61,834 bases of DNA from a virus. The translations under genes were made by a program, and so were the position numbers. Numbering within the stretch: position 1 is the stretch's first letter; every line of letters begins with the position of its first letter. Positions 4,197 to 61,834 of the stretch are shown here, piece after piece. The stretch covers positions 1 through 61,834 of IMG/VR virus record IMGVR_UViG_3300020061_000006; one strand, written 5' to 3'. The notes beneath the pieces are model-generated. The model made no database searches and was not told where the DNA came from. It saw nothing but the letters and a program-made list of their open reading frames with translations.

Positions 4197-4217
4197 GCGT
4201 CCAGTGTGGCAGACCAT

Positions 4218-12344: not shown

Positions 12345-12357
12345 TCGAACCCCTCCT

Positions 12358-12906
12358 TTATAGTGGAAATACGGCTAGCCGTCTGTAGCGCCAATCTCCC
12401 GTAAGAGACCCAGATACTCTATATTTAGCCGTAAACGTATTCATTCCTGGCGTCAAATCACCGTGAAGAATAGCTGCCCCCCATGCCTGTCCGGCATTAG
12501 CTGACCCCTGTTGCAATTGGATTGCCCTATTGTCGGACGCATCAGATTGCGTATCGCCGCTTACTTCATAACTCATCCAAGTTGGACCGCCCGTACTGCT
12601 CCACTGTTGACAGTACAGAAAAATCAATGCACTAACAGAAGTAGCGACCGTTACGGAGGGGCCAATTGTCGCTAGGTCCGTATAGTCAGTTGAGGTCGTA
12701 GTCTCTGATGCAGTTCCATTGTCTACGTAAGCACTTATCGTAGATCGCTCAGCAATCATCCCACGGGCCACTACGGCAAAATGCGATCCAGCGTGTACGG
12801 ATCGAGCCGGCATGGTTTCCAGCATGTTGTCTCGGAGATACGTGTTCAACTGAGATGCGGTGAGAACCGAGTTCGGAACGAAGGTAATTGGGGCGGTCCA
12901 AACCAT
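12358..12906 (-). CDS. tandem tail/fibre paralogue 5 of 7
   Basis: 182 residues: MVWTAPITFVPN, QLNTYLRDNMLET, ER, YTDLATIGPSVTV, ALIFLY, SYEVSGDT, DLTPGMNTFTAKY, RRLAVFPL. A two-gene block with copy 6; separated by 13 bases. Same role as its paralogues inferred. Confidence 0.75.
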   Translation of the reverse strand: MVWTAPITFVPNSVLTASQLNTYLRDNMLETMPARSVHAGSHFAVVARGMIAERSTISAYVDNGTASETTTSTDYTDLATIGPSVTVATSVSALIFLYCQQWSSTGGPTWMSYEVSGDTQSDASDNRAIQLQQGSANAGQAWGAAILHGDLTPGMNTFTAKYRVSGSLTGDWRYRRLAVFPL

Positions 12907-12915
12907 GAATGCCCC

Positions 12916-13482
12916 CTAGAGTGGAATGACGATTATTCGGCGAGTTGCAAATGCGGCCGTACTGCCTGATGATATGGAATACTTCATAGTGAATATATTC
13001 GAGCCCGGATTCAATCCACCCTCATACATAACACTAGACGCAAATAGTGTTTGCCCAACGGCGGGCGAGCCTACCGCCGAGTTGCTTCCCGCGTATCCCA
13101 ATGACCAGTTCACAGATGCGGCAATAGTTGTTGCTCCGGATACCGCATAAGAAGCGCGAACCGATCCGGTTGTACTTGGCGTTGAAACCTCGGCCCTAAT
13201 AATTATCAATGCGGCCGATCCGGTATCAACCGTCACCGAAGGTCCTACCGTGGCCAGGTCTGTAAATGCTCCTGTAGTAGAAAGAGTTTCGCTAGTAGCC
13301 ACGAAGTTCTGAACAACGCTTCGTGCCGCTATCGCGTTGCTGCCCGTGGCCACGAAGTATTGTCCGGTTGCCGTCGCCTTGGCCGGCGATGTTTCTAGAA
13401 AGTTGTCTCGCACATGCTGATTCCACTGGGCTGCCGTTAGCGCGGTATTCGACACGGCAGTCATAGGGGAAGTCCAAACCAT
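12916..13482 (-). CDS. tandem tail/fibre paralogue 4 of 7
   Basis: 188 residues, the longest simple copy: MVWTSPMTAVSN, QWNQHVRDNFLET, ARSVVQNFV, FTDLATVGPSVTV, SYAVSGATT, GLNPGSNIFTMKY, RRIIVIPL. The FTMKY ending and QWNxxVRDN form group it with copies 1, 2 and 3 rather than 5-7, suggesting two rounds of duplication. Confidence 0.75.
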   Translation of the reverse strand: MVWTSPMTAVSNTALTAAQWNQHVRDNFLETSPAKATATGQYFVATGSNAIAARSVVQNFVATSETLSTTGAFTDLATVGPSVTVDTGSAALIIIRAEVSTPSTTGSVRASYAVSGATTIAASVNWSLGYAGSNSAVGSPAVGQTLFASSVMYEGGLNPGSNIFTMKYSISSGSTAAFATRRIIVIPL

Positions 13483-13491
13483 TGATGCCCC

Positions 13492-14034
13492 TTAGAAAGG
13501 TATGACCACTATTTCGCGCTTGCCGAACGACGCGATACCAGAGCCGGCTAGGTACTTCATGGTGAATGTATTTACGCCGGCGGTGAGACCCGTGATGCGA
13601 TGTGCCACGCTTCTCCGCGTAGTCGAGAAAGCCGTCAGCCCGTCCATAAGGCACGACCAGTCATCGGAGGGAGCCACGGTCGTTGCGCCTATTACAGAGA
13701 AGGAGAAGCGGCTACTGGAGTCCGTAGAGGAATTGCTGACCTCGGCGGACATGAACACCAGTGCCGAAGTGTCAGTGCCAGCGTTCACGGACGGCCCGAA
13801 TGTCGCCAGGTTTCCATAGCTAGTCGCCACCGTATTTTCGGTAGCCGATATGACATTGCTATTTGTAAAGGCCGATTCCACGGAGTGAGCGGCTATGTTT
13901 ATGAAGTGGGCGCCTTCATTGCCGGATCCATTGAAAGCTTCCGTCTCGGCCATGTCGTCGCGCACGGTCGCATTCCAAATAGCGGCAGTGAGGGTATCGT
14001 TAAGAACCGCAGTGTAAGGCGACGACCACGTCAC
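13492..14034 (-). CDS. tandem tail/fibre paralogue 3 of 7
   Basis: 180 residues: MTWSSPYTAVLN, IWNATVRDDMAET, YGNLATFGPSVNA, ALVFMSAEV, FSVIGATTVAPSDDW, GLTAGVNTFTMKY, KREIVVIPF. The usual RDN is RDD here. The start overlaps the stop of copy 2 (ATGA at 14031-14034). Confidence 0.75.
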   Translation of the reverse strand: MTWSSPYTAVLNDTLTAAIWNATVRDDMAETEAFNGSGNEGAHFINIAAHSVESAFTNSNVISATENTVATSYGNLATFGPSVNAGTDTSALVFMSAEVSNSSTDSSSRFSFSVIGATTVAPSDDWSCLMDGLTAFSTTRRSVAHRITGLTAGVNTFTMKYLAGSGIASFGKREIVVIPF

Positions 14035-14576
14035 AGCGGAATCACCACAATTTCACGTTGCTCGAATTGGGCAGGCGTATAAGTGGGCTGACACCTATAT
14101 TTCATTGTGAAAGTGTTGTCGCCAGCGTTTAGCAATACTCCTCGACACGAACTAATCCGCTGAGGATTATTGCTCTTCACTCCTCCACTGGACGCCATCC
14201 AATTATCGCTAGCCCCTATTGATGTCGCCCCGCTTACCTCGAAACTTGCATATGCACCTTTACCGTCGGTCGTTGCCAGGTTCCGCATGCGAGCCGAGAC
14301 AAACACAACAGCCGCCAGGCAATTGACAGTTACCGAAGGGCCGGCGGTAGTCAGGTCTGCATAGCTAGTCGATATCGTCTGTCCGGAGTCATTGGCGACG
14401 GATGAAACGAACTTACGCTCAGCCAACTGATTAGTACCGCTGACCGTAAACCAGTTCCCCGGACCGCTAGCCTTCGCCGAAGCCATTTCAAGCAGATTAT
14501 CTCTGACGCTTTGGTTGTACTGAGCGGCAGTGAGAATGTCATTCGTGGCTACCGTGATCGGAGTGGACCAAGCCAT
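14031..14576 (-). CDS. tandem tail/fibre paralogue 2 of 7
   Basis: 181 residues: MAWSTPITVATN, QYNQSVRDNLLEM, ERKF, YADLTTAGPSVTV, VVFVSARM, ASFEVSGATSIGASDNW, LNAGDNTFTMKY, QREIVVIPL. It is the closest relative of copy 1 in the order of strands and shows where the extra domain of copy 1 is inserted. Confidence 0.75.
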   Translation of the reverse strand: MAWSTPITVATNDILTAAQYNQSVRDNLLEMASAKASGPGNWFTVSGTNQLAERKFVSSVANDSGQTISTSYADLTTAGPSVTVNCLAAVVFVSARMRNLATTDGKGAYASFEVSGATSIGASDNWMASSGGVKSNNPQRISSCRGVLLNAGDNTFTMKYRCQPTYTPAQFEQREIVVIPL

Positions 14577-26225: not shown

Positions 26226-27500
26226 TTAGACGCCAGTAACCTTGCAGAAGGCGGCCGGACGGTAGACGACGAAAGCCGCACGCATGTCCGCACGCATGGC
26301 CTGTTTGCCGTTCACGAAGTAATCGGAGTGCGAGTTAGAAACCTGCACGTTGATACCGCGCTTGACGGCAAGCTCGCTGTAGTTAGCGAAGTCTCCGACG
26401 ATGATGGTGCCGGCCACTAGCGCCTGCGCCTCAGTCACCTGAAGTCCCCAGATACGCGAAACGCCGGTGTCGCTCGGGTTGCCCCAGATGTACAGACCAT
26501 CAGCAGTACGCAGAAGTCGAATACCCTGCCAGTCAAAGGGGTTGAACACCGCTGCGTTCGGCATAGCTCCACCGGTAACGCGAACGTTCGTCATGGCCTT
26601 GTAAACAGCATCCGGGGTAGCGTCGCTACCCTTTGCCTGCGTCTGGATGCCCGAGTAGGTAGTCAGACCCTTAAGGTTCGGAGCGTTGCCATCGCCAGCG
26701 AGAATCTGGGAGTCCAGACGCTGACGCACCATGAACGGAAGGCGGTTGTCAACGTAGCCACGAACCTGAGCAACATCCTCAAGCTGTTCATCCGTGATTG
26801 CGAGATAAACCGAGATCTTACGGACGGGCGAACTCTGCTCAGTAAGCTCGAAATCAGTCTGAGGATAGGCGCCACCCTCCGCGACTTCTGTGGCATTTGT
26901 TACGCCATCAGTGCCGAATCCAGTCTCTTCCATGAACACGACCGCAGACTGATTAGTAGCATTCTGCGGAACGATGTCAACGACCTGAATCGGGCGGGTC
27001 ACGAAGTCAACGACACGGCCGGTACGGATGTTCTGAGGTGCCCAGCCATCACCGGTGCTTATGTCCGTGGCAGCAGTCTTCAGCATAAGGCCCTTGAGGT
27101 CAATATCCAAGGTCGCCTCAGGACCAGAATTACCGGTCTTACCCTTGTAAGCCTGCGACTCAATAAACAGATCACCAAAAGACTTGCGCTGAGCAGGAAT
27201 ATTTGCGTTGTTGTTCTCATTGCCGCGCTCACCATCGCGGGCATTCGGCGCCTGCTGAATGCGCTGCGCAGCCTTGAGAGTTTCCTGCAAGTCGTCGTGC
27301 TTAGTGCCCAGGTCGTTAAGTTCGTGGTTCCACTCGCGAACCTGCTTGGCAACCTCGAAGGTGTTACCAGTAACAGACTTCACCTTAGTGAAGTCCATTT
27401 CCGGCCCCGCCTCAGAGATGACCGCTGAAACCTTGGCACGGAGGTTATCAATCTTGCCCTTTACTTCCTTCAGGGCGGGGAAGTCAATTTCAGTAGCCAT
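26226..27500 (-). CDS. major capsid protein, HK97 fold
   Basis: 424 residues from ATG 27500 (AGAGGAATAA upstream); the longer in-frame opening adds a basic segment overlapping the protease gene and is unlikely. Residues 5-110 are a helical delta/scaffold segment (ALKEVKGKIDNLRAKVSA). The mature part shows HK97 features: the GDGWAPQNIRTG entry, TQTDFELTEQSSPVRKISVYLAITDEQLED spine and E-loop region, and the C-terminal AMRADMRAAFVVYRPAAFCKV strand. The protease directly upstream would remove the delta domain. Confidence 0.95.
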   Translation of the reverse strand: MATEIDFPALKEVKGKIDNLRAKVSAVISEAGPEMDFTKVKSVTGNTFEVAKQVREWNHELNDLGTKHDDLQETLKAAQRIQQAPNARDGERGNENNNANIPAQRKSFGDLFIESQAYKGKTGNSGPEATLDIDLKGLMLKTAATDISTGDGWAPQNIRTGRVVDFVTRPIQVVDIVPQNATNQSAVVFMEETGFGTDGVTNATEVAEGGAYPQTDFELTEQSSPVRKISVYLAITDEQLEDVAQVRGYVDNRLPFMVRQRLDSQILAGDGNAPNLKGLTTYSGIQTQAKGSDATPDAVYKAMTNVRVTGGAMPNAAVFNPFDWQGIRLLRTADGLYIWGNPSDTGVSRIWGLQVTEAQALVAGTIIVGDFANYSELAVKRGINVQVSNSHSDYFVNGKQAMRADMRAAFVVYRPAAFCKVTGV

Positions 27501-28608
27501 TGGTATTATTCCTCTGTATTTCCATAAGATCGAAAATGGCAGCTTCGCGGGCAAGTTCCTCTTGCGGCGTGTCAACGACCGCCTTAAGGTTCTTAAGCTC
27601 ATCATTCAGCCAATCGAGCATTTCGACTGATGCGTGAGACATGGTGCGGCCCTTTGCGGCTCGCATTGCCGCAATCTCCTGCGCGCGAAGAATAAGGTCA
27701 GATACCGAAGCCAAGACAGCGGCACATTCGTCAGCGAATTTAAGCGAGGTCGAATTGGTATTCGCGCGGAGTTCAGGAACCTCGCGCTTAGCCTCTTCCA
27801 GGTGCGCGGCAAGGTGGTTGTAAACACCGCGCCGGTCGGCATCGGGGATGCCGGCCCCTCCACGTGCTCCATTAAGGATTGCAATACCCGTGATGCAAGC
27901 GCGGATATTGGCCTCACCCTTGACGGCTTCATGGTGGGGAAATTTGTAGGACTCCTTAACTTCAGGATCCTTAGTGGGGTCACACCAGGCAAAAACACTT
28001 CGGAGATCAGACACCGAAGATTCCGCAGGGATACCCTTTATCGCCTTGCTACCGTTCCATTCGCCGTCCGCAGCCTTAGTAAGGTGCGGGCGAATTGCAG
28101 CCTTGTAAGCATCGCCAGCCATTGCGGCCTGCTCCTTAGCGGCCTTAGTGCCTAGAGTGCGGGTATTAACTCCGGCACCCTGCATAACCGGCGACACTTC
28201 ATGGACCTTGACGGCATTAAGGAATCGAACGTCTTGTCCATCGAATACGCCAGGGGCTGCGTCCAGGATGTCAAATCCGTAGGACCACTCACCCAATCCA
28301 CTTTTGGCAAGTTCGGCCACGGTATTAAACGCGTCTACGCCGTGCGTGGTGTCCATGAAGAACTGCATATCTGCAATTGCTTCAGACTTAGTGGTTCGGA
28401 TAACACCCTTGCCAACGGGAAGCTGGCCGGACCAACTCTGATGACCGTAGGCGCTGACGACGATGGGTGCACCATCCTGGATTGCATCCGGAGGTGTTAC
28501 GTCGCCGTCTTTGTCAATTACGTTGAATGTCGAGAACACCGCCTCGACTTCACCCTTGGCGGCATCCTTGATTCGTATTGTGGAAGAGAAATCCTTACGG
28601 ATGGGCAT
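27490..28608 (-). CDS. prohead protease with extra C-terminal domain
   Basis: 372 residues from ATG 28608. Residues 1-165 are the HK97 U35-type protease: GEVEAVFSTFNVIDKDGDV, catalytic His in SAYGHQSW, GEWSYGFDI, and catalytic Ser in HEVSPVMQGAG. Residues 205-290 form a second conserved domain (YKFPHHEAVKGEANIRACI, GVYNHLAAHLEEA) often fused to phage proteases. A helical tail overlaps the capsid start. It matures the prohead. Confidence 0.92.
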   Translation of the reverse strand: MPIRKDFSSTIRIKDAAKGEVEAVFSTFNVIDKDGDVTPPDAIQDGAPIVVSAYGHQSWSGQLPVGKGVIRTTKSEAIADMQFFMDTTHGVDAFNTVAELAKSGLGEWSYGFDILDAAPGVFDGQDVRFLNAVKVHEVSPVMQGAGVNTRTLGTKAAKEQAAMAGDAYKAAIRPHLTKAADGEWNGSKAIKGIPAESSVSDLRSVFAWCDPTKDPEVKESYKFPHHEAVKGEANIRACITGIAILNGARGGAGIPDADRRGVYNHLAAHLEEAKREVPELRANTNSTSLKFADECAAVLASVSDLILRAQEIAAMRAAKGRTMSHASVEMLDWLNDELKNLKAVVDTPQEELAREAAIFDLMEIQRNNTNGY

Positions 28609-28637
28609 AGCAATTTCCAATCGGTACCAGGAACCGG

Positions 28638-30050
28638 TTAGTTGCCATTTGGACCATTGCCCGGAGAAGTCGGGTCTTGTCCATTGGCTGATTTAGGAGG
28701 TAGTTCAGAAAGGGGGGGTTGCATTTGTACGGAAACAAGGCCGGTATGCTGACCGGTCAAAAGGCCAAGATCCCGCGTCATCGTCGCCTGAACTGACGCG
28801 TCCGGCTTGTATCCGGATTTAATAAGCGAATCGATGGAGTTAGCCTGAATGCGGAAGATCTCCGCCAGGTCTGTTTCATCCTCGCGAAGGAAAGCCACAT
28901 CTGAGGTGTCGTACCAAAGTGCGGCTTGGCTATTAGGCGCGTTGACGACGTTCTGAAGGCTCGCCGCAGCAATGCGCCACAACGTGCGAATGGTGCCGTC
29001 AGCGAGACGCCGGCGAGCGGCTGCGTAGTTGCCAGCATTAAGGCCGGAACCCTGCAATCCCTCAGAGAAGCCAACCCACTGAGGGGGCATTCCGCCGGCT
29101 GACGCTATGCGCGACTCGCCCTTTCCGACCGTTGCGGAGAAGTCGAGCTGCCGGAAATCCATTGTCAGTGGCGTTACGTCTGCGCCACCCAAAAGGAAGA
29201 GCGTCTTATAAGCATTGAACGCCCCCTGATGGCCTGCTTTGAATTGCAAGACGAATTCGTCAAAGTCTTCTTTCGAAGTATCCTTATCGAATTTGACAGC
29301 GAGGTTCGGAACGGCGGCATGATCGAAAAATTGCTTCTTATGCAAGGTGGACGACATGTCCGCTTGAATCTCAAGCAGGATTGGCGTAAGCCACGACATG
29401 CCACGGAATCGAGCAACAGGATCCGGTGTCGGCGAATAATGGCAGACTTCATCAGGCATAAGCAGGACCGTTGGCGCTTGCCCGTTGTCCTGTTGCGGCA
29501 CACCGCTTAGCTGCGTGCTATACATGTATCCGATGATTCGCGCATCCGCCGCAAAAGGATCCTTGTTGCTGGCGAGGCTTGAACCGATAAGGATGATGAC
29601 CCAATCGGGACGCAAGCGCGTGAGCCGCAGCCCCTGGCCGGCGGCTGCCTTTCCATAGCGCCCAAGGTCGTCGGTACGCGTCCAGTACGAGTTCCCTGCG
29701 AGCGAAGCGTCCTGTTCCATACGCGCAAGCAATTCGCCTGTCGTGCCGCCTGGCCATGGCGTTTCCAATATGGAAAGCTCTGGACTGCCGAACAGATTGC
29801 CCTTATTAATCCTGTCGCGCCAAATGAAGGTACCTTCAGAAAACAGCTTCATTCGCGCATCAATTACAGAAAAAATAGTACCATTGCGCTTGTAGGCGCC
29901 TTGTGCATATCCCTCGAAATCGTTGTCTAGTCTTTCCTCGGTAGATATCCCAGAAGCGACGAAGGGGAGATTCAATAGGTCTGTCTGCCAGAACGGCGGC
30001 TGGACGAATGACTTTTTTTCCCTGCCGAATAGGCGTTTCCAGAATGCCAT
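28638..30050 (-). CDS. portal protein
   Basis: 470 residues from ATG 30050 (GGGGGTGACAACTTT upstream). MAFWKRLFG is a typical portal N-terminus; the body has FRGMSWLTPILLEI, GGMPPQWVGFSEGLQGSGLNAG and RRRLADGTIRTLW, matching HK97-type (SPP1 relatives) portals. The Pro-rich tail (PPKSANGQDPTSPGNG) is disordered. It lies between the terminase and the protease, as usual. Confidence 0.92.
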   Translation of the reverse strand: MAFWKRLFGREKKSFVQPPFWQTDLLNLPFVASGISTEERLDNDFEGYAQGAYKRNGTIFSVIDARMKLFSEGTFIWRDRINKGNLFGSPELSILETPWPGGTTGELLARMEQDASLAGNSYWTRTDDLGRYGKAAAGQGLRLTRLRPDWVIILIGSSLASNKDPFAADARIIGYMYSTQLSGVPQQDNGQAPTVLLMPDEVCHYSPTPDPVARFRGMSWLTPILLEIQADMSSTLHKKQFFDHAAVPNLAVKFDKDTSKEDFDEFVLQFKAGHQGAFNAYKTLFLLGGADVTPLTMDFRQLDFSATVGKGESRIASAGGMPPQWVGFSEGLQGSGLNAGNYAAARRRLADGTIRTLWRIAAASLQNVVNAPNSQAALWYDTSDVAFLREDETDLAEIFRIQANSIDSLIKSGYKPDASVQATMTRDLGLLTGQHTGLVSVQMQPPLSELPPKSANGQDPTSPGNGPNGN

Positions 30051-30057
30051 AAAGTTG

Positions 30058-31563
30058 TCACCCCCAAGCCATTGCAGTGGTTGTGGTTTTCTCAAATGAG
30101 AGCTTTTCGTGACCCCACAAAGCCAATGTCATGCAAACTGCGGGACTGATATCCACGTTCACGTTCGGTCGAGCCAGCGCCCAGAGTCCGGCCAAGTCGC
30201 GCTTTGATGCGCCGCGCATTGCGTTGTTAAGGTCCGTCTGATCGCGGTGCCACAGGTACGGCTCATTGTTCTTTGCCGGACAAATAGCGGAGCGCATCTT
30301 TCCGCACGCCTGAGCGTATTCACGCGCGGTAGGAGAAACGACTCTGATGCCGGCGGCTTCGAGTGCCGGCTTGAGGTCTCCGGCCTGCGATGTCATGTCG
30401 ATGATGAAAGCAATGGGCTTCCAACGCTTCTGCAATTCCTTAGCGCGCTCTACGACCCAATTGGCACCGGGGCGATAGTCAATCTCGGTTCCGTCACCAC
30501 GACTCGTTATTTCAGCGACCTTGCTGCCGTCGCCGGCATCGCCTACCGCGAGAATGCAGGAGTGCGAACGATCCGGATTCGTATCAATGGCGAAGACGAG
30601 TGGCCGCTGTGGAGCGAGGGATTCCGTAGTTCGAGCCAGCCAATGTTCCTCCGAAAGCACTTTCCATTGCTCGGTCGGATTGGGCCAGTCTCCGACGCCT
30701 AGTCGCTCCTGCTTAAACAGCACAGGACCGAGCGAACGGAATTCTTTCTCTATATGCTCCCGAGAAATGGTTATACCCATACTCGGATTAGCTATTGCCC
30801 ACGCCTCAGGATCGGTAATCGATTCGTGGTCAGGACACTTGTAATCCTTGACCTCGGGATCGCAATAGTCGTTGCAGTGATTTATGGACCATTCAAGATA
30901 TGAAAGCGAAGGATCTTCTCCCTTGAGCGCACGCGCACGCACCGCACCGAATTGCGTAGACTCCTGATTGCCGGCGGATCCCGTATACCAAAGCTGTGGA
31001 TTGCCAGTCACTGATCGAGCCGACATCGTAGGGATAAGCGCGGCAACCGCCGTATCGGCTAGGTACATCGCTTCGTCCAGGATGATTAGATCACCGGTGA
31101 AGCCACGGCCACCGCCCTTGGTCCGCGTACGGAATCTGATCTTTTGTTTGTTCTTTAGAGTGATTCCCTCATCGCCGTGCGAACGCGACACGCGCATCAC
31201 TTCGCGGTCGAGATCTGGATTACTTTCAATGAGAGTTAGCAAACGCTCGAATGCCTCAAGCGAAGTATCGAAGAGGTGCGCTGAATGTATGATGAACTTC
31301 TCGCCAAACAAAAAAAGCCCGGCAAGTTCCCGGGCTTCTAGAATGCTTCCTTTTCCATTTTGTCGAGAAACCATTAGGCCAACTTCGAAAGCTGACCACT
31401 TTCCGTCGTCTCTTACTCCGAGCGACTTTCTTAGTACCGTCTTTTCCCATTCGAACAAATGCAGACCGGCTGTTGCCGCAAGTTCTATCGCGTCATCACC
31501 GAGACTGTATGTTGTTGAAATAGGCGTATGCATGATCCGTGGATCCTGAACGCCAATCATCAT
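30058..31563 (-). CDS. terL: terminase large subunit
   Basis: 501 residues from ATG 31563 (31560 is possible); a longer upstream opening is a shadow of the small-subunit gene. Walker A VSRQNGKGS (residues 65-73) and Walker B LIILDEA mark the packaging ATPase. The nuclease half has the acidic FAIDTNPDRSHS motif and a second acidic site near IIDMTSQAGDL. The DxNPDR motif places it among actinophage terminases of the HK97 lineage. It cuts and pumps DNA into the prohead. Confidence 0.95.
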   Translation of the reverse strand: MMIGVQDPRIMHTPISTTYSLGDDAIELAATAGLHLFEWEKTVLRKSLGVRDDGKWSAFEVGLMVSRQNGKGSILEARELAGLFLFGEKFIIHSAHLFDTSLEAFERLLTLIESNPDLDREVMRVSRSHGDEGITLKNKQKIRFRTRTKGGGRGFTGDLIILDEAMYLADTAVAALIPTMSARSVTGNPQLWYTGSAGNQESTQFGAVRARALKGEDPSLSYLEWSINHCNDYCDPEVKDYKCPDHESITDPEAWAIANPSMGITISREHIEKEFRSLGPVLFKQERLGVGDWPNPTEQWKVLSEEHWLARTTESLAPQRPLVFAIDTNPDRSHSCILAVGDAGDGSKVAEITSRGDGTEIDYRPGANWVVERAKELQKRWKPIAFIIDMTSQAGDLKPALEAAGIRVVSPTAREYAQACGKMRSAICPAKNNEPYLWHRDQTDLNNAMRGASKRDLAGLWALARPNVNVDISPAVCMTLALWGHEKLSFEKTTTTAMAWG

Positions 31564-31949
31564 CTCGGCAGCTCGCTGCCCTTGGGTCGCGTCCGGCGGC
31601 TGTCCTGCCGGCGCGCGGCAGACTGCGGAGACGCTGAGGTCTCCGTCCCGCCACCCGTACGCTTGCTGACGCGGTTGCGGATGGTCGCCAGGTCCGGCAC
31701 GTCCGACGGGAGCCCCGGGGACGCCTGAGGGGCCGCAGGGGCCTTGTCCATGGCCTCGATCTTGGCCAGGCAATCCATGAGTCTATTGGTCAATGGTGCA
31801 ATCTCTTTGTAGTCCGGACCGCTTCTATTGCAGTGTTCGCATTCGTTGCCACTGAGCGCTCTGCCGAGCATGTCACGGATAGCTTTAAGAGATTCAAGCG
31901 TGTCGTCTTGCCGTAGGACGCCTAGCAGGACATCGGGTATCTCTTGCAT
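31560..31949 (-). CDS. terminase small subunit (putative)
   Basis: 129 residues from ATG 31949 (AAAGGAGCGTCT upstream). N-terminal helix (MQEIPDVLLGVLRQDDTLESLKAIRD), a CEHC knuckle (ECEHCNRSG), a second helix and a basic Arg/Ser-rich tail. Small size, position just before terL and the coupled TGA/ATG junction support a small-subunit role; sequence alone is not diagnostic. Confidence 0.75.
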   Translation of the reverse strand: MQEIPDVLLGVLRQDDTLESLKAIRDMLGRALSGNECEHCNRSGPDYKEIAPLTNRLMDCLAKIEAMDKAPAAPQASPGLPSDVPDLATIRNRVSKRTGGGTETSASPQSAARRQDSRRTRPKGSELPR

Positions 31950-35479: not shown

Positions 35480-35508
35480 TCAGAGGCCTGTAAGGGGTGG
35501 CATAACTG
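35360..35508. repeat. inverted array of 12-bp iteron-like repeats
   Basis: Six copies of CAGTTATGYCAG or its complement: CAGTTATGTCAG 35360-35371, CAGTTATGCCAAG 35379-35391, CAGTTGTGTCAG 35430-35441, then in the other orientation CTGGCATAACTG 35446-35457, CTGACATAACTG 35464-35475 and TGGCATAACTG 35498-35508. AAGTATGCCAAG (35389-35400) is a partial copy. Three copies point each way around 35443. The last copy lies within the end of the helicase gene. Confidence 0.8.
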
Positions 35509-36682
35509 CGGGAGTCTCGATCTTGGGCAGCGACCAGTAGGAGACAAGATCACGACCGAAGCCGGAGCGTTCTACTACTACGTCCAAGGACTTCCTAGCC
35601 CTATGCAAAGAGGATTCCGAAATACCCTCCTGCCTGGCCGCAGTCTTGGCGTCTTTCGCGTTTGTTTTTCCTTGCGACTCCAAAAGATCCTTAAGAAACT
35701 TCTTCGCGTCGGTCATCTGTCCGCCATCGCTCAAGCTGGACTCTGCGAGAACGTCGGAAGTTTTGACCTTTGTAGTACCGGTAATTTTGATAAAAGAAGT
35801 TGAGATAAAATTGCCATCTTCGGTGAACGAGAACGGTTCGATAGTATACGTATAGCTATCGATATTCAGGTTCCCTAGATTGCTCTTTTCCTGTGAAAGG
35901 ATGTAGCCATTTTCTACTTCAGGATCCGCAATGACGCCCATAGCCGATCGGCATACGTTACCCATTTCAGTGCTTCCCAAAATGGCATCCATAAGGTTGT
36001 TCGTCATTGCCTTGCGCGTGTGCGCCAATCCGATAGCTGCCAAATTGTTTTCAATGCACATTTTCTGAATTGCTTGCATACTGGTCCGCATGAACGATCC
36101 TGTGTCGCCCTTAATCGATTCAAGGTTTGCGCTCAGCGGGTCGAGCATCACGCACGCCGCATCGACGCTACGCGCTGCTTCCGCCATGCGCTCACAGTCT
36201 CGCGGTAGGATCACGTTGCTGTCCGGCACGGACACGAAGAAGATGCGCGACAGTTCCGCGCCGGCAGCGACCATGCGAGGCTTCACCGTTCGTTCTAGCG
36301 AATCCTCGTTGACCACATATAGCACTGACTTGGGCTTGCCGAAAAAGCTGCCGTCCATGTTGCCGGTCGTGATGTCCGCAGCGATGCGAGCGAGCATCGT
36401 TGACTTGCCTACGCCACCACGACCAGCGATTAGGGTGATCTCCCCCATGGGAACGCGCTCTTTCCAAAGCCAATGCGTCGTAAGAGACCGAATACCGGAC
36501 GCACCGGTAAGGACAATCGAGCGGCCGGCTTGCAGCTCCTTCTCTGCTTCCTCCTGCCCTTTCTTCTTAGCAATCGTCTTTTCTTTTTCGATCTCAGTAA
36601 GACGAATGCGTTTATCTTCGGCAATAAAACGTGCAACAGGATCCCGTTGTGCTGCAACCTGATCTAGTTGCGTTTCCTGCAT
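35480..36682 (-). CDS. RepA-like hexameric helicase / AAA ATPase
   Basis: 400 residues from ATG 36682; a longer opening to 36793 lies inside the upstream gene. A coiled N-terminus (RIRLTEIEKEKTIAKKK) leads to Walker A IAGRGGVGKSTML and Walker B AACVMLDPL, the order of AAA_25/RepA (RSF1010-type) helicases: GEITLIAGRGG, VLYVVNEDS, GLAHTRK. A winged-helix-like C-terminus (TAARQEGISESSLHRARKSL) fits an origin- or DNA-binding end. It ends within a repeat array, so it probably initiates replication there. Confidence 0.85.
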   Translation of the reverse strand: MQETQLDQVAAQRDPVARFIAEDKRIRLTEIEKEKTIAKKKGQEEAEKELQAGRSIVLTGASGIRSLTTHWLWKERVPMGEITLIAGRGGVGKSTMLARIAADITTGNMDGSFFGKPKSVLYVVNEDSLERTVKPRMVAAGAELSRIFFVSVPDSNVILPRDCERMAEAARSVDAACVMLDPLSANLESIKGDTGSFMRTSMQAIQKMCIENNLAAIGLAHTRKAMTNNLMDAILGSTEMGNVCRSAMGVIADPEVENGYILSQEKSNLGNLNIDSYTYTIEPFSFTEDGNFISTSFIKITGTTKVKTSDVLAESSLSDGGQMTDAKKFLKDLLESQGKTNAKDAKTAARQEGISESSLHRARKSLDVVVERSGFGRDLVSYWSLPKIETPAVMPPLTGL

Positions 36683-37062
36683 ATCGGGCAATCCGGATGA
36701 TACGGAGTCAGATCCTTCACTTGGTACTTCTCCGGCACTGACGAAAGGGTGGTGTCCGTTTTGCATTCCCGCCCCTCTCGGCAATCCTTGCAATAAACGT
36801 TAAATTCGCAATCGTCATGCGGCTTCGCGTCGAGCCGGCAGTTCGGTTCCACATCCCAACCCGCGCCCCGCGCCGCTACCTCTGCTGCGCCCCGTGTGGG
36901 CCACATGCCGGCGGTGCGAGCCGTCGCGTGGCACTCCAGTGCTTCGTTAGGCACCGCTGGGCTGTGCCCTGCCAGCACCGCGTCATAGGCTGCCTGCGGC
37001 GTGCTCAGCCACCCCTTGCACGGTCCGTCGCACCGCATCCGCCAAACCTGCTCAGCGCTCAT
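36664..37062 (-). CDS. cysteine-rich protein
   Basis: 132 residues. CDGPCKGW, CKDCREGREC and CPICRK make three zinc-type clusters. The central region is Ala/Gly-rich. Coupled to the helicase (19-base overlap) and to the next zinc protein upstream (ATGA). A DNA-binding or scaffold role is possible; function unknown. Confidence 0.7.
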   Translation of the reverse strand: MSAEQVWRMRCDGPCKGWLSTPQAAYDAVLAGHSPAVPNEALECHATARTAGMWPTRGAAEVAARGAGWDVEPNCRLDAKPHDDCEFNVYCKDCREGRECKTDTTLSSVPEKYQVKDLTPYHPDCPICRKRN

Positions 37063-38497: not shown

Positions 38498-38764
38498 TTA
38501 GCTCCTGCATAGAATGCATCGCGGCATGTATCCGGCGGTTATTTTGCGGCACAGCACGTGATGCTCAAAGTTGAGTATGCGTTCCGCCGCAGGCGGACAC
38601 GTGCATTCGACTTCGTAGTCGAGCCATCCAAGCTCGCGTGCCGCATTCGCAGCCTTCAGCCTGGTATCGAACTCGTTCCAATCCGGTTGTGCAATTTCGT
38701 CGTCTCCAAAGCCTAGGTATTGCTTGCAGCCAACGCACTGCACTCGGTAAAAGGCAACTATCAT
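38498..38764 (-). CDS. 88-residue cysteine-rich protein
   Basis: ATG 38764 behind GGAGTGCGA. MIVAFYRVQCVGCKQYLGF, then CTCPP, then CILCRS: a C-x2-C, C-x-C and C-x2-C set. Related in layout to other zinc proteins of this block. Function unknown. Confidence 0.7.
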   Translation of the reverse strand: MIVAFYRVQCVGCKQYLGFGDDEIAQPDWNEFDTRLKAANAARELGWLDYEVECTCPPAAERILNFEHHVLCRKITAGYMPRCILCRS

Positions 38765-38979
38765 TCGCACTCCACCTCTATTACTTCGCAGGCCGTGAAC
38801 TTCCAACGCCAATTGACCTTGACGAATAGCTTTCCGGTGTCGCTGAACTTGAAATCCAGGCCGTAGGGATTGAAGCGACGCAAAGCCGCACGCCTGGCCG
38901 AATCCTCCGTGGTGGAGAATGCGACCGGACGTGCGGCTTTCATCACTACGTATCCGCTACGGATTGCGTCCGGTTTCAT
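38761..38979 (-). CDS. 72-residue protein, unknown function
   Basis: Start taken as ATG 38979 (TAGGAG upstream, though 11-12 bases away); 38943 is the alternative. MKPDAIRSGYVVMKAARPVAFSTT, then RAALRRFNPYGLDFKF and a FTACEVIEVECE ending. The RRFNPYG segment is shared by short Streptomyces phage proteins. Its start overlaps the HTH gene by 23 bases. Confidence 0.6.
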   Translation of the reverse strand: MKPDAIRSGYVVMKAARPVAFSTTEDSARRAALRRFNPYGLDFKFSDTGKLFVKVNWRWKFTACEVIEVECE

Positions 38980-39715
38980 ATCGGAAATCGCTCCTAGCGG
39001 TGCGGCATGCTCGACAGCCAAGGACGTAGCGTGCGCCACTCCAGTGCTTGTCACCTATCGCCCTGTGCAGCCTGTAGCCGGCTACGGTGCCGCACTCCCC
39101 CGTGTACTGCGGCACCGCATCAGGATTGTCTATCGTGTCGTCATCCCAGCAATTCAGCGGTGCCCATTCGTGCCGCCTCGCATACTCGGATGATTTCTTG
39201 ATGACCCAATCGACAACGCCCTGACTGGCCGGAGTCACAATCTCAAACCGGTCAGTAAGCTTGTGGACTTTCTCCGCCATCGACAGCGATATGGTGTCGT
39301 ACATGCCGACGATGATCTGATTGCCCGCTACGAAAGCCGCGTGGCTTTGCTGCCCGTTGTACAGCACGTTGGTTGCTATCCAACGCTGCGAGTATCCAGC
39401 GCTGACAAGGCCCCGCAGCCGGCGACGCGTGCCGATGCTTGGGACCAGTTTGTTCGGCACGCGCTCGGGCCGCACTGACCGCAATGATTCAAGCGTAGAC
39501 GCGTAGCAGCCCACCCCTATGGTCGATACCGTCGTTGCATGGATGAAGAAGCCGTTTTCCGTGGCTTGCTCGGCTATCCTCGCATCCGTCATTCCGTATG
39601 CCCTAAGGCGGTCCCGGATTTCCCTCGCCTCACCTGAGGGAATCTGGTGGGGCTTGCCGTGAAGCCTATCCAGTCGCGACTTTTTGTCTACGCGGCTCTT
39701 GTACGTCATGGACAC
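38957..39715 (-). CDS. actinophage-type HTH DNA-binding protein
   Basis: 252 residues. The N-terminal part reads as two HTH-like helices (RDRLRAYGMTDARIAEQATENG; RRLRGLVSAGYSQRWIATNV), the middle has MYDTISLSMAEKVHKLTDRF, followed by ARRHEWAPLNCWDDDTIDNP, which matches the hallmark WAPPLAWDDDTIDDP of a family of actinobacteriophage regulators. The end holds C-x2-C (CRACR). Likely a sequence-specific repressor or activator. Confidence 0.8.
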   Translation of the reverse strand: MSMTYKSRVDKKSRLDRLHGKPHQIPSGEAREIRDRLRAYGMTDARIAEQATENGFFIHATTVSTIGVGCYASTLESLRSVRPERVPNKLVPSIGTRRRLRGLVSAGYSQRWIATNVLYNGQQSHAAFVAGNQIIVGMYDTISLSMAEKVHKLTDRFEIVTPASQGVVDWVIKKSSEYARRHEWAPLNCWDDDTIDNPDAVPQYTGECGTVAGYRLHRAIGDKHWSGARYVLGCRACRTARSDFRYETGRNP

Positions 39716-39718
39716 GAC

Positions 39719-40114
39719 TTATCCCCCTAGCGCGGCATTCAGGGCCGTTTCGATAATGACGCCTTCGCTCTGCACCGGAATCATGGTCACGGTTTGCAGC
39801 GTGAAGTCGCAAATCCACGGCAGGTCGACCAGGATGTGAGCCATTCCGTCAGGTGACCTAAGGGTAATCATGACGCGGTCGTCGTCGTAGCCCTCGAACA
39901 GGATGTCCCCCTCGCCCGCCTGGTCGCATTCCATGAGGTCTATCAGAAGATCTCGCGCGAACTTCCAGGAAATGGGAGCCGGTGTGAAGAACGTAATGGT
40001 TACGGCGATTGGGTCAGACGAGTTGTAGCTCAGCCTCGCATTAATGGATGCCGGCCGCGATCCGTCCTTGGTGGTCGAAACGAAAGCCTCGCTGTCGCTC
40101 ATGTGAATGCTCAT
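39719..40114 (-). CDS. SsgA-like (SALP) family protein
   Basis: 131 residues. SsgA/SsgB proteins are small Streptomyces regulators of septum-site choice, sporulation and cell-wall remodelling (about 130-145 residues). The match includes INARLSYNSSDPIAVTITFF (family: LRYDxxDPYAVxxxF), WKFARDLLIDLM (WxFARDLL), GEGDILFEG (GxGDVxV), MITLRSPDGMAHI (ALxSPxGxA) and a TVTMIPVQSEG ending (VPxGxE). Every conserved block is present in order. ATG 40114 has GAGG five bases upstream, and the gene is coupled to its neighbour. It might recruit or block host SsgB/FtsZ machinery. The family match is strong; the phage role is inference. Confidence 0.9.
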   Translation of the reverse strand: MSIHMSDSEAFVSTTKDGSRPASINARLSYNSSDPIAVTITFFTPAPISWKFARDLLIDLMECDQAGEGDILFEGYDDDRVMITLRSPDGMAHILVDLPWICDFTLQTVTMIPVQSEGVIIETALNAALGG

Positions 40115-41814
40115 TCGAACCTCACGTGTCTCTGCATAGCGCTGTCCTGATACTCAGTGAATCGCGTCACGACTGAAGATATGTCGCATTCACCGCCGTA
40201 CTGTCCTTCTACAGCCACACGCCAGCCACCTATCCTTTCCGTCGGGATTGGCTGAGTTTCGGGATCGGCACTCCATTCGATGTTTATGTGTTGCATCCAA
40301 TGCACATCATCCCCGAACCGCGTAGCCTTTACCTCATTGATGTTGTACTTGGTGATTCCGCACCGGTCCAGCAATGCGCGAATCTCCGGCACCGAAAAGA
40401 ACGGCTCATCAATGACAATCCCGGGAAGGCGCGTGCCTATATGAACTCCGTTCGCGTCGCGAATCACAGGGTCCGGTCGCGGTAGACCCCTAACCGTAGA
40501 GTTCATGAAGAATCGCTCAGAAATAGTGGGAGTTCGCACAATGTCCACAGCGCGCTGAAAGTCTTCCCAATTGAACGTGAACGTCTCGTCAACGACCGTG
40601 CATTGATACGCAGGCATGCCTTCGCTGGCAATAGCGTTTATCGTCACGTCGCTAATGCCTGGCACTTCTTCGCCGTTGACGCTTACGCGTTGCACCTCAT
40701 CGACTATGACGAGAACTTCGCTCGGCCCCCTGAATCTCTGCTGAACAGTCTCAGGGCTCATTGTCGAGCCTTCGTCCGGTTCGGGTGGCTCAACTTCGCT
40801 GTCTGAATCCGGCGCAATGTTCACGGTTTCCAGTAGTCTGCGCTGCCATGATTGCAGTGGCGCTCCCATTGCTGCGGCTAGATTCGCAGTAGTGATCTCA
40901 TCCCGAATAGCCGGTTGCGGCGGTCCTACTCTGGTGAACATGTCGTTCAGCCGTCGTGCTGTCTCAGGCGGAACGCGCCGATGTCTCGTGAACGCCTCTA
41001 CGGTGGCGTCAATGTCGATATCCACGCCGCTGCTCTGCGGTACGGCGTTCTGCGCGTACGCGTCCCATAGCGCTTGCAGTTCCTCGGGCGTGCCCGTGTA
41101 TCCGACGGCTTGCAGTCGAGATGCGAGTTCGGAGCACTGGCCGGCCGTCATCGCACCCGGGGCAAGCGGAGCGTGGAGCGCGTCACGTTGAAAAGAGGGA
41201 TCGTTCGCCAGTCCACTTAGCCACGAACCGGCGGTTTGGGCTCCCGGAGCCCACTGGTAATGGGATGCCCTCGGGTGCAGCAATTCGTCGCGCTCTATCA
41301 TTTCGCGTCGCCGTTGACTGCGCGCCTCTTCCTCTTCCAGGGCTCTCGCCGTATCGTGCTGGCCTACGCGCTCCAACGCCTCTTGCAGCACCGACATTCT
41401 GCGTAGCTCACCATCGCTCCGCACGGTTGGCGCTGCGGCCGGCTTGCGGTAGCCGAACACCGGATCGTGTTCGGCCCCTTCGATGTCGCGGTACTGGAGT
41501 CTGCCAGACTCACCGCTTCGGTCAATGTATAGACCGGAACGTGGATTCGATATGGATTCCCCCTCTTCGAAATTCCCCTCGTTCTGGAATGCATGACGGG
41601 GATCCTCGGGTGGTCGACTGGTCGGAGAGCGGAACGTTCCTTTGCATCTACTTTGCTCCGCGTCCTGGTCGTAATCGTCTCCGTTCCAGGGTGCGCCTTC
41701 TGCTATCCTGTTGCGGAAGTGCTTGCCGAGCACCGCACCGCGATGCGCGGACTTGACTAGGTCCACGTCGCGACCGCAGTGCCGGCAGTAACCTGTTTCG
41801 TCCGGCTCGCTCAT
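40111..41814 (-). CDS. large protein of unknown function with N-terminal zinc finger
   Basis: 567 residues, the largest gene of the right arm. Starts CRHCGRDVDLVKSAHRGAV...GKHF, a C-x2-C-x9+-H knuckle. A coiled region (QEALERVGQHDTARALEEEEA) and acidic linkers follow. The second half is beta-rich (VLVIVDEVQRVSVNGEEVPG, TFNWEDFQRAVDIV). The duplicated phrase WAPGAQTAGSWLS / LAPGAMTAGQCSE suggests an internal repeat near 180-230. No enzyme motif is visible. Confidence 0.75.
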   Translation of the reverse strand: MSEPDETGYCRHCGRDVDLVKSAHRGAVLGKHFRNRIAEGAPWNGDDYDQDAEQSRCKGTFRSPTSRPPEDPRHAFQNEGNFEEGESISNPRSGLYIDRSGESGRLQYRDIEGAEHDPVFGYRKPAAAPTVRSDGELRRMSVLQEALERVGQHDTARALEEEEARSQRRREMIERDELLHPRASHYQWAPGAQTAGSWLSGLANDPSFQRDALHAPLAPGAMTAGQCSELASRLQAVGYTGTPEELQALWDAYAQNAVPQSSGVDIDIDATVEAFTRHRRVPPETARRLNDMFTRVGPPQPAIRDEITTANLAAAMGAPLQSWQRRLLETVNIAPDSDSEVEPPEPDEGSTMSPETVQQRFRGPSEVLVIVDEVQRVSVNGEEVPGISDVTINAIASEGMPAYQCTVVDETFTFNWEDFQRAVDIVRTPTISERFFMNSTVRGLPRPDPVIRDANGVHIGTRLPGIVIDEPFFSVPEIRALLDRCGITKYNINEVKATRFGDDVHWMQHINIEWSADPETQPIPTERIGGWRVAVEGQYGGECDISSVVTRFTEYQDSAMQRHVRFE

Positions 41815-49123: not shown

Positions 49124-49836
49124 TAAAGTCCTCTTTGATATGCGGAACGGATCTCTTCCTTGACGATTGGCTTTCCCAGGAACTCGTTAGCTATATATTG
49201 TGAATAAGCTGGTGGAATCGCTTCGGCCAGCGTCACCTTGTCTGTTATCCAGTCAATCCCCATGGCGCTCTGCCATTCTTCAATGGTGCCTTTGTTTCCG
49301 CCCGTTCCATACACAGGGAAGTAATACCCTTCCGTCGTGTACGTTCCGCGAACGGCACGACCGGCCCCCTTAGTCGGTCCTACGTGCTCCACATGCCTTA
49401 GCGTCTGCGGCAAGAATCCGCCGCATTCTATGATCCGATGGCGGACCACTCGCAACCCGAACATCTCGCCGCAAAGCATCAGGTCGCTACGCATGGGGCC
49501 CGTCTTCTCCATGGGCGGAACGTTCTCCATGGCGAATGGGACGCGAGCTTTCATCAGGGCTTTACGCGTCTGGGAGATCAGGATTCTGTATTTCGCTCGC
49601 TGTGCAGCGGGTGTAATCGTGCTCGCGCCCTGACATGGAGGACTTGCCCAAGCGAAGTCATATTCGTGAGCATGGTCCAATGCGAATTGGACAGCATTAG
49701 CTAGTATGAAATCGTCTCCGCAATACTCAGGCTGATTGAAGAAGTCAACACCCGTTACGTGAAATCCAGCCCGTTGCAGTCCCTTAGTCGCCCCTCCCCC
49801 GCCGCAATAAAGATCCAACACCCTGAGTCTAGGCAA
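49123..49836 (-). CDS. C5 cytosine DNA methyltransferase
   Basis: 237 residues from TTG 49836 (GGGGAGGAAGC upstream). Motif I is DLYCGGGGATKGLQRAGF, motif IV ASPPCQGAS with nucleophile Cys68, motif VI ENVP, and RHRIIE stands where motif VIII QxRxR is expected. No cognate nuclease lies beside it, so it is an orphan methylase, probably protecting phage DNA from host restriction or marking DNA. The recognition sequence cannot be read. Confidence 0.9.
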   Translation of the reverse strand: MPRLRVLDLYCGGGGATKGLQRAGFHVTGVDFFNQPEYCGDDFILANAVQFALDHAHEYDFAWASPPCQGASTITPAAQRAKYRILISQTRKALMKARVPFAMENVPPMEKTGPMRSDLMLCGEMFGLRVVRHRIIECGGFLPQTLRHVEHVGPTKGAGRAVRGTYTTEGYYFPVYGTGGNKGTIEEWQSAMGIDWITDKVTLAEAIPPAYSQYIANEFLGKPIVKEEIRSAYQRGL

Positions 49837-50722
49837 GCTTCCTCCCCTGTAGCCGGTAGGCAGATCTTATCGTCTGCTCCGCTTGGCGTTGCCCCCCGTC
49901 GCCACCGTTCAGAACGTACGCGTTGCCAAGCACCGATACGGCTTCTTCTTCGGGAATGGAGTCGTTGCACGCCGCGCGTGCAGCCCAAAGCAATGCGTTG
50001 TTTCGGTTGCCGTCGGGTGCGGTCAGTACGGCTTCTTCCAGGCCGCTGATATGGCCCCCTGAGGCCGGCCTGACGAACTCCGACAGCGACGCGGGCACAA
50101 CGTCCCGCGCCCCGTCGGTGCAGTACCGCACAAGCCATTCGGGAGCGTCCGCAACGGGCAGGTCGTTCTCTACGACGTAGCCACCTTTTTCCGTGCATGA
50201 GCCGGCGCCCAGGACGTAGCCGCCATCCTTGCCGCCGTTGCCGCGCACATCGCACAAGCCTTTGAAGATGGACGCCTGGCTTGACAGTACGTCTTCCGGC
50301 CACCGGTAGTAGTAGTGAATGCCTAGGCTTCCGGTGCAAACTGAATAGGTATTCCGTACTTCAGCCCAGTCCGCACCGCACTCCGTGGCGAGATACTCAA
50401 ATACACCAGTTCCGTCAACCATCGGTCCGCGTGTGTCGTGCAGTTCTGCAAATCGTGATCCTGCCAACTGATATTCTCGCTTAGGCATGTCACAATCGAC
50501 GACAAAGAGATTCGACGGCTTACACGCGATTCCGACATTAGCCTCAGGGCTCCACTGCCAGTAGTTCAGGACGGCTGCTAGGTCATTGGTGGACCGCTCA
50601 CCCCATTTAAGCGTCCAGGGCTTGTCTTCCCGGATCTTGTGCGGCGTCTTTTCCAGCGGCTGCACCGGAAACACATACCATCCGCGCTGAATCGCACGCA
50701 CCGCGTCAGCTAGGAGGTTCAT
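49829..50722 (-). CDS. primase-polymerase (AEP superfamily)
   Basis: 297 residues. Prim-Pol features in order: AIQRGWYVFPVQPLEKTPHK, LKWGERST, NVGIACKPSNLFVVDCDM with catalytic Asp76/Asp78, GIHYYYRWPED, and CDVRGNGGYVLGAGS. A helical C-terminus (NNALLWAARAACND) follows. There is no separate DnaG or polymerase in the window, so this enzyme probably makes primers, possibly extending them. Coupled to the methylase gene. Confidence 0.88.
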   Translation of the reverse strand: MNLLADAVRAIQRGWYVFPVQPLEKTPHKIREDKPWTLKWGERSTNDLAAVLNYWQWSPEANVGIACKPSNLFVVDCDMPKREYQLAGSRFAELHDTRGPMVDGTGVFEYLATECGADWAEVRNTYSVCTGSLGIHYYYRWPEDVLSSQASIFKGLCDVRGNGGKDGGYVLGAGSCTEKGGYVVENDLPVADAPEWLVRYCTDGARDVVPASLSEFVRPASGGHISGLEEAVLTAPDGNRNNALLWAARAACNDSIPEEEAVSVLGNAYVLNGGDGGQRQAEQTIRSAYRLQGRKLA

Positions 50723-51956: not shown

Positions 51957-51957
51957 G

Positions 51958-52041
51958 TAGACAGGGTGGGATTCGAACCCACGTACAACCCTTCCAACCT
52001 ATCGCTAGGCTGGGCTGCTCTGGCCGCTGAGCTACCTGTCC
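51958..52041 (-). tRNA. atypical tRNA with enlarged anticodon domain
   Basis: Acceptor GGACAGG/CCTGTCT (one G-U), D-arm GCTC...GAGC, T-arm GTGGG-TTCGAAT-CCCAC and discriminator A are standard. The part between D-stem and T-stem is 34 bases instead of 23. It can fold either as a GCCC/GGGT stem with an 18-base loop or as a hairpin CCAGCCTA-GCGA-TAGGTTGG with a GNRA-type tetraloop. No 7-base anticodon loop with T33 can be drawn for a whole 5-bp stem, so no amino acid is assigned. An 11-base insertion in the anticodon loop is the simplest description. Confidence 0.55.
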
Positions 52042-52724: not shown

Positions 52725-53222
52725 CTACGGCCGCACCACCCTCACGACATGCTGCGAAGCGCTGTTCTTCGAGCCGACATCCGTTGACACGTGGATTTCG
52801 GCGAGTCGCGTACCGGGCTTGTGCGCTACCACCATCATGCCGGCGCCGATGTACAGCGCGACGTGCGATGAATAGCTGGTCGATGTGCCGAACGCGAGGA
52901 TGTCACCGGGGCGCACTCCGGAGAAGTTGAGCGCCTTGCCTTTCGGCATTGTCTTCACGGAGTGCAGCCTGTGAAGCTGGTCATTGGCGACGCGGGGAAT
53001 CGAAACACCCGCAGACTTCCATGACGCGTAGGTGAGCCCTGAGCAGTCAAAGTGACTCGGACCGATACCGCCGTACACATACGTTGCGTGCGCGGAAGCT
53101 TTCGCCTTCGCGTACTTGGTTGCCGTGACGCCCTTTGCTGCGGACGCGGTAGCGAATGCGGGTGCGATCGCGACGATAGACGCCACAACTGCCGTGCCGA
53201 TTACTACTGCAATCTTTTGCAT
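52725..53222 (-). CDS. exported NlpC/P60 peptidoglycan peptidase
   Basis: 165 residues from ATG 53222; a longer upstream frame is formed of tRNA sequence and not used. Residues 1-28 are a Sec signal (MQKIAVV, hydrophobic, ATASA). Catalytic Cys60 lies in HFDCSGLTYASW, His120 in SSHVALYIG and a third polar residue in VVAHKPG. PGDILAFG is also conserved. It cleaves peptide stems of peptidoglycan outside the membrane. It lies far from the lysis cassette and has its own export signal, so a role in host wall remodelling or in a surface layer is more likely than timed lysis. Confidence 0.9.
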   Translation of the reverse strand: MQKIAVVIGTAVVASIVAIAPAFATASAAKGVTATKYAKAKASAHATYVYGGIGPSHFDCSGLTYASWKSAGVSIPRVANDQLHRLHSVKTMPKGKALNFSGVRPGDILAFGTSTSYSSHVALYIGAGMMVVAHKPGTRLAEIHVSTDVGSKNSASQHVVRVVRP

Positions 53223-53255
53223 TGGAATCCAATGATTGATGGATGGGACCCTGCG

Positions 53256-53341
53256 TGCATCCGGCTGGATTCGAACCAGCGTCCTCCCGTGCGCCCGTAA
53301 AGGCTCCGGATTGGGTGCTCTAACCACTGAGCTACGGAAGC
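53256..53341 (-). tRNA. atypical tRNA-like element
   Basis: Acceptor GCTTCCG/CGGATGC (one T-T mismatch), D-arm GCTC...GAGC, T-arm GCTGG-TTCGAAT-CCAGC, discriminator A. The central part is 35 bases and, as in the element at 51958, has no normal anticodon loop; CCC/GGG arms flank a CCG-GA-GCC-tttac-GGC-GCA-CGG hairpin. 86 bases long, which fits a class II tRNA by length, but a proper 5-bp anticodon stem is not found. Confidence 0.5.
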
Positions 53342-61661: not shown

Positions 61662-61834
61662 CTAGCCGATGCGCAGGAACGACGCGTTCGAGCCCAGGAA
61701 CGAGAAGTACCCGGTACCGGTGCCGTACTGGCCCGTGTCGCTGTTGTACGCGAAGCCGCCCACCAGAACCTTGGTCGCCGTGGTCAGCGTGAAGACTCCG
61801 ACGCCGTTCGCCGGCTCCTCAATGCTGCCCGTCG
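61662..61834 (-). CDS. secreted LDTR-domain surface protein (C-terminal part)
   Basis: Continuation of the gene at 1-925, since 61691-61834 repeats 1-144. After the repeat the frame reads GSNASFLRIG and stops at TAG 61664. The stop is in frame with ATG 925 on the closed circle, confirming the junction. In this copy base 61817 makes Glu where the left copy has Gln. Confidence 0.85.
   Translation of the reverse strand, partial: TGSIEEPANGVGVFTLTTATKVLVGGFAYNSDTGQYGTGTGYFSFLGSNASFLRIG
61691..61834. repeat. terminal overlap, copy 2 of 2
   Basis: Repeat of 1-144 with one difference (C 61817 against G 127). See the left copy. Confidence 0.9.

Follow-up and report, generated by a model that had tools for sequence, protein, structure and literature searches.

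The gene at positions 39719–40114 of a phage genome raises two questions: does it really encode an SsgA-like protein (SALP), and what would a phage do with one? Here, the window is the whole 61,834-nt virus record (IMGVR_UViG_3300020061_000006).

A diverged member of the SsgA/SsgB family

An initial annotation had assigned this stretch to the SsgA family, and the assignment holds far beyond chance. The gene, for which the annotation named no strand, lies on the minus strand and encodes 131 aa, starting from an ATG at 40114 that is preceded by a good ribosome-binding site (GTGAGG); on the plus strand, stops interrupt the same frame. Two checks proposed with the annotation, a profile search against the SsgA family and a structure prediction compared with SsgB, were run, and the assignment survived both. 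In the first, hmmscan reported SsgA (PF04686) as the sole Pfam family, with 59 bits (E 4.6e-16; curated cut-off 25 bits) over profile positions 1–98 of 98. A sequence search against the PDB returned SsgB of Thermobifida fusca at the top (3cm1, E 1.4e-8), then S. coelicolor SsgB (6slc/6suj, E 4.9e-6; the chain name in these entries reads SsgA, but the protein is SsgB). Matches to phrog_24861 (E 0.16) and MciZ (E 0.15) were rejected as noise. The five sequence blocks listed in the annotation are all present in order (YNSSDPIAV, WKFARDLL, GEGDILF, SPDGMA and IPVQSEG), except that the last one starts with I and not with V. Together with an orthologue in a prophage, described below, these matches show that the gene encodes a genuine but very diverged SALP.

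For the structural comparison, a single-sequence AlphaFold model proved too poor (pLDDT 51) and was discarded. A second model, based on a five-sequence alignment of the window SALP and four further phage SALPs, reached a pLDDT of 69 (core 76–86) and a pTM of 0.62, with secondary structure elements in the order E-E-E-E-H-E-E-E-E-H-(H). When this model was compared with the PDB by Foldseek, eight SsgB chains ranked first (E 5e-8 to 9e-6, TM about 0.56–0.71, up to 0.71 normalised by query). They were the sole matches below E 1e-3, and the next one followed at E 4e-3. The window SALP is thus predicted to take the SsgB fold, a beta-barrel with helices. The top three matches in a viral library were TunaTartare, an unnamed 154-aa protein of the same length as the Dagobah SALP, and BillNye, whose entry is named 'SsgA family sporulation/cell division regulator'. 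The fourth was an uncharacterised protein of Streptomyces phage Ibantik (BFVD A0A2U8UNC9, 14% identity, E 5.8e-6), which has an SsgB-like predicted fold and is possibly an even more diverged phage SALP.

Family membership does not make the protein an SsgB. In the numbering of S. coelicolor SsgB, it retains P34, V37, W51, R55, L57, G67, G69, D70, F107 and E120, and it carries I in place of Y35, L97 and V115 and Q in place of G118. All residues invariant in 41 host SALPs (P34, W51, R55, G67, G69, D70, and E120 where aligned) are present, while only three of the seven mutation-sensitive SsgB positions are kept (V37, L57 and E120, but not Y35, L97, V115 and G118). Among mutations of S. coelicolor SsgB, Y35H and L97P stop sporulation, whereas V115G, G118V and E120G each rotate septa via the angle of helix 3 (PMC8061694). 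Compared with SsgB of S. coelicolor and T. fusca, the FtsZ recruiter, the window protein belongs to the same Pfam family, has the same predicted fold and shares W51, R55, L57, G67, G69, D70, F107 and E120; however, it is phage-encoded, only 24–28% identical, and altered at Y35, V115 and G118. Among the SALPs of Loccivirinae phages, one group has D at position 120 and the BillNye group has K55 and A120, although the alignment is less sure here and the 115–120 region is unsure in the most diverged phage SALPs. Because septum-critical residues of SsgB are altered, the phage proteins are SALPs but do not appear to be SsgB replacements, and we do not class the window protein as an SsgB, that is, as the FtsZ-recruiting orthologue. 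That phage SALPs seem to keep the family core yet vary where mutation of SsgB blocks or rotates septa is a new observation.

The phage, its operon and a prophage counterpart

Direct repeats of 144 bp at both ends (1–144 and 61691–61834, 143/144 identical) make it probable that the record covers a phage genome of about 61.7 kb in full. The head genes for the terminase large subunit, portal, maturation protease and major capsid protein (26226–31773, minus strand) show that it belongs to a tailed phage. It also encodes a serine integrase (2730–4217, minus strand; phrog_95 integrase, E 4e-46, with Resolvase and Recombinase domains), a tape measure protein, a GH25 endolysin, an exonuclease and an endonuclease VII, and its GC content is 51–59%. 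The virus is a temperate siphovirus-type actinophage. Its nearest terminases among isolates come from Rhodococcus equi phages (48–49% identity), but the closest relative that we found is a prophage of Streptomyces sp. SID3212, detected by scanning species genomes with the window capsid protein. Based on this relative, the host is probably Streptomyces-like.

The SID3212 contig NZ_WWJY01001238.1 carries one SALP (58 bits) of the six in that genome, and an ORF comparison revealed that a complete syntenic prophage lies there, flanked by GC-rich DNA. Its head genes are 58–71% identical to those of the window (capsid 71%, portal 71%, terminase 58%). Both phages share the gene order zinc-ribbon-like gene, SALP, HTH gene (phrog_1590), small ORF and helicase, with reading frames that overlap or touch in the SALP block. 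In the window, the upstream gene (40111–41814, minus strand) encodes 567 aa with an N-terminal zinc-ribbon-like segment (CxxC), and its first 80 aa share 34% identity with the protein encoded just before the prophage SALP. Since its stop overlaps the SALP start (ATGA), translation of the two genes is probably coupled. Four bases past the SALP stop follows the GTG start, preceded by AGGGGG, of a 252-aa helix-turn-helix-type DNA-binding protein (38957–39715, minus strand; phrog_1590, E 4.1e-23), whose phage relatives are annotated as 'helix-turn-helix DNA binding domain protein'. Next come a small conserved ORF (38761–39054, minus strand; 44% identity to prophage ORF c_36380_36607) and an AAA/RecA-like replicative helicase that ends the syntenic block (35480–36793, minus strand; Pfam AAA_25, E 8.8e-22; phrog_10729; 53% identity to the prophage copy). 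A Prim-Pol (primase-polymerase) gene also lies in the early region (49829–50722, minus strand; Pfam Prim-Pol, E 3.9e-27); its product is 65% identical to the SID3212 prophage copy and 42% to the product of a gene near the SALP of phage Dagobah. We found no sigma-70-like promoter within 38.5–46.5 kb, which says little for actinophages.

The prophage SALP occupies the orthologous position, with the same upstream and downstream genes and in a related phage backbone, but it keeps Y35 and G118, which the window SALP does not. The two SALPs are only 28% identical, as are the two HTH proteins. Compared with the 71% of capsid and portal, this means that SALP and HTH protein evolve much faster than their surroundings. 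A more distant prophage, OV450 (capsid 45%), has no SALP at this point: its HTH gene comes immediately after the zinc-ribbon-like ORF, and then the small ORF. The SALP is therefore an accessory gene at a fixed place. Relatives of the HTH protein occur in 49 of 393 Streptomyces genomes, and among the best 30 loci of these 49 genomes a SALP lies beside the HTH relative only in SID3212. Other Streptomyces prophages with related helicases had no SALP in the stretch fetched. A syntenic prophage with a SALP at the same place of the operon is new here.

Several other features of the window deserve mention. Just downstream of the integrase gene lies a 48-nt imperfect palindrome (2673–2720), a candidate attP or terminator. 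At 11281–14576 (minus strand), six paralogous ORFs of 175–188 aa are arranged in tandem, and for five of them the match is to the C-terminus of the minor tail protein phrog_7565; a similar run exists in the SID3212 prophage. This array is possibly a receptor-binding repertoire or a tail decoration array. An NlpC/P60 peptidase-like protein (52725–53327, minus strand; Pfam E 6.7e-18; 34% identity to a SID3212 prophage ORF) is encoded among the early genes, a long way from those for lysis and tail. Two tRNA-like genes (51957–52041 and 53255–53341, minus strand) received unusual anticodon calls from ARAGORN (gcga and at), and both are supported by the Rfam tRNA model.

Distribution and descent of phage SALPs

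Phage SALPs as such are not new, as Streptomyces phage Dagobah was reported to encode an SsgA homologue, HUN42_00031 (Hardy et al. 2020, PMC7650747). A tblastn search of 50,697 phage records with three SALPs yielded about 30 phages with a SALP, all of them Streptomyces phages: Dagobah and 130-kb phages of Loccivirinae type (Stanwilliamsviridae), for example Sham (gp205), TunaTartare (gp213), Faust (gp210), BillNye and Wakanda (gp230). Nearly all of these SALPs are labelled 'hypothetical protein' in GenBank. The same search gave no convincing SALP outside Streptomyces phages, although the records include many Mycobacterium, Gordonia and Rhodococcus phages. A restriction to Streptomyces phages, even though the nearest terminases of the window belong to Rhodococcus phages, fits a target in SALP-bearing hosts. 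The initial annotation had described SALPs as nearly confined to sporulating actinomycetes, in agreement with the literature (PMC3814722); however, 33 of 50 evenly sampled genomes from the class to which the Streptomyces relative belongs carry one, so the family is widespread in that class.

A few candidates were rejected upon inspection. The record MT838510.1 ('Bacteriophage sp.') is a 5-kb contig that resembles an actinobacterial chromosome, with high GC, amidohydrolase-like and alpha/beta-hydrolase-like genes and a host SALP aboard; it is a contaminant within the phage collection. Microviridae gave only weak tblastn matches (E about 0.4); these overlap the capsid gene and are due to chance. 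A scan of IMG/VR with the window, SID3212 and Dagobah SALPs found no relatives. When all phage SALPs were aligned together, the result was too diverse for such a scan, and group-wise scans returned only isolate phages and one environmental 130-kb phage type.

The Dagobah SALP resembles that of the window in that it belongs to a Streptomyces phage (for the window, this host is probable) and lies within the replication region, close to a Prim-Pol gene. It is 31% identical to the window SALP and has a longer C-terminus, the HTH relative of Dagobah does not adjoin it, and the phage is otherwise a singleton. The Loccivirinae SALPs share the SsgA family motifs and a tree group with the window SALP, but they belong to 130-kb phages, and what surrounds them is not HTH and helicase genes but a conserved series of small genes, with an Lsr2 gene close by. 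In all seven annotated 130-kb phages that were examined, the SALP gene ends 0.84–0.95 kb before an Lsr2-like gene. The 130-kb Stanwilliamsviridae phages are, as far as is known, lytic, so carriage of a SALP is not tied to lysogeny.

In a tree of 54 SALPs, the 13 phage sequences separate from the 41 host SALPs sampled and form two groups: SID3212 with Dagobah, and the window with the Loccivirinae (support 96/84). Host and phage labels change only twice on the tree, compared with a mean of 11.7 after shuffling. Holding all phage SALPs as one clade was not rejected (AU p 0.42), but the branches are long (2.2 changes per site for the window SALP), which makes the placement soft. A single origin is thus possible, and the tree suggests one or two old viral lineages rather than recent captures from hosts; this separate grouping is a further new observation. 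Temperate phages often acquire host genes, and the window SALP reaches about 38% identity to host SALPs, as might be expected if a host gene had been picked up accidentally and were now decaying. We regard such a recent capture as highly improbable, because the frame is intact, the branch is long and far from all 41 sampled host SALPs, and an orthologue exists in a prophage whose capsid protein is 71% identical. Moreover, dN/dS among the Loccivirinae SALPs is about 0.12–0.3, which indicates that these genes are kept by selection.

Possible roles during infection

It seems reasonable to suppose, as the initial annotation did, that a phage SALP controls cell division or sporulation of the host. 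More specifically, we give about an even chance to an early protein that engages the SsgB–FtsZ pathway, most likely as a decoy or altered-function partner that alters septation. The protein would be made early, together with the replication proteins, and would bind a partner of the host SALPs: SsgB or SsgA themselves, FtsZ, or a SepG-like anchor. It could then delay or misdirect sporulation septation during phage replication, which would keep the hypha open and productive rather than sealed into compartments and spores. Action on host SsgB–FtsZ is favoured because of the early-operon position, the restriction to Streptomyces phages, the purifying selection in those phage SALPs where it was measurable, and the altered septum-orientation residues. 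The direction of the effect, block or promote, is not given by the sequence. A parallel is WhiB of phage TM4, reported to hinder host septation (PMC7650747). Like the SALP, it is a phage copy of an actinobacterial developmental regulator and may serve as a model for SALP action, but it belongs to an unrelated protein family and acts on whiB2 transcription.

A role in replication is an equally possible reading of an operon that also encodes a DNA-binding protein and a helicase. The strongest rival reading is that the phage replication operon has recruited the fold as a structural or regulatory subunit, for example as a partner of the HTH protein or helicase, which would then not act on host division. 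The tight, probably translationally coupled gene arrangement, its conservation in the prophage, the nearby Prim-Pol gene in Dagobah and the high divergence from host SALPs would all suit such a subunit. We nevertheless consider it unlikely, since OV450 manages with HTH gene and small ORF alone, the SALP accompanies the HTH gene only in SID3212 among the best 30 loci, the 130-kb phages have other neighbours including Lsr2 genes, and convincing matches are confined to Streptomyces phages. Overexpression of SsgA stimulates septation, and the phage protein might likewise promote septation and sporulation by an SsgA-like gain of function, with phage or prophage DNA enclosed in the spores and dispersed with them. 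The conserved core, with E120 and R55 kept in both window and SID3212, is compatible with this, as are the integrase and the prophage nature of the nearest relative. It appears quite unlikely to us, however, because SALPs also occur in the 130-kb phages, which have no known lysogenic cycle and no obvious gain from sporulating hosts, and because the window SALP has changes at Y35 and G118, on which SsgB depends.

Taking the preferred decoy reading further, phage SALPs may form an old phage-specific branch of the SsgA/SsgB proteins that evolved to capture host FtsZ recruitment, was altered at septum-orientation residues, and is used by unrelated Streptomyces phages to stop compartmentalisation and sporulation. 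We put this broader proposal forward only tentatively. The window SALP is a new, highly diverged member that has an orthologue in a prophage and comes from a temperate lineage that had not been covered, and the wider view of the mostly unlabelled phage group appears to be new as well, as far as an incomplete literature search can tell.

The approximately 30 mostly unlabelled phage SALPs vary naturally at residues that mutational work on SsgB has addressed, which makes these ideas directly testable in laboratory Streptomyces. If aimed at SsgB-dependent septation, a phage SALP would be a small tool to perturb Z-ring placement. Streptomyces development can contain phage infection in hyphae (PMC10117723), and with the same target, the protein would be a direct counter-move to this developmental containment.
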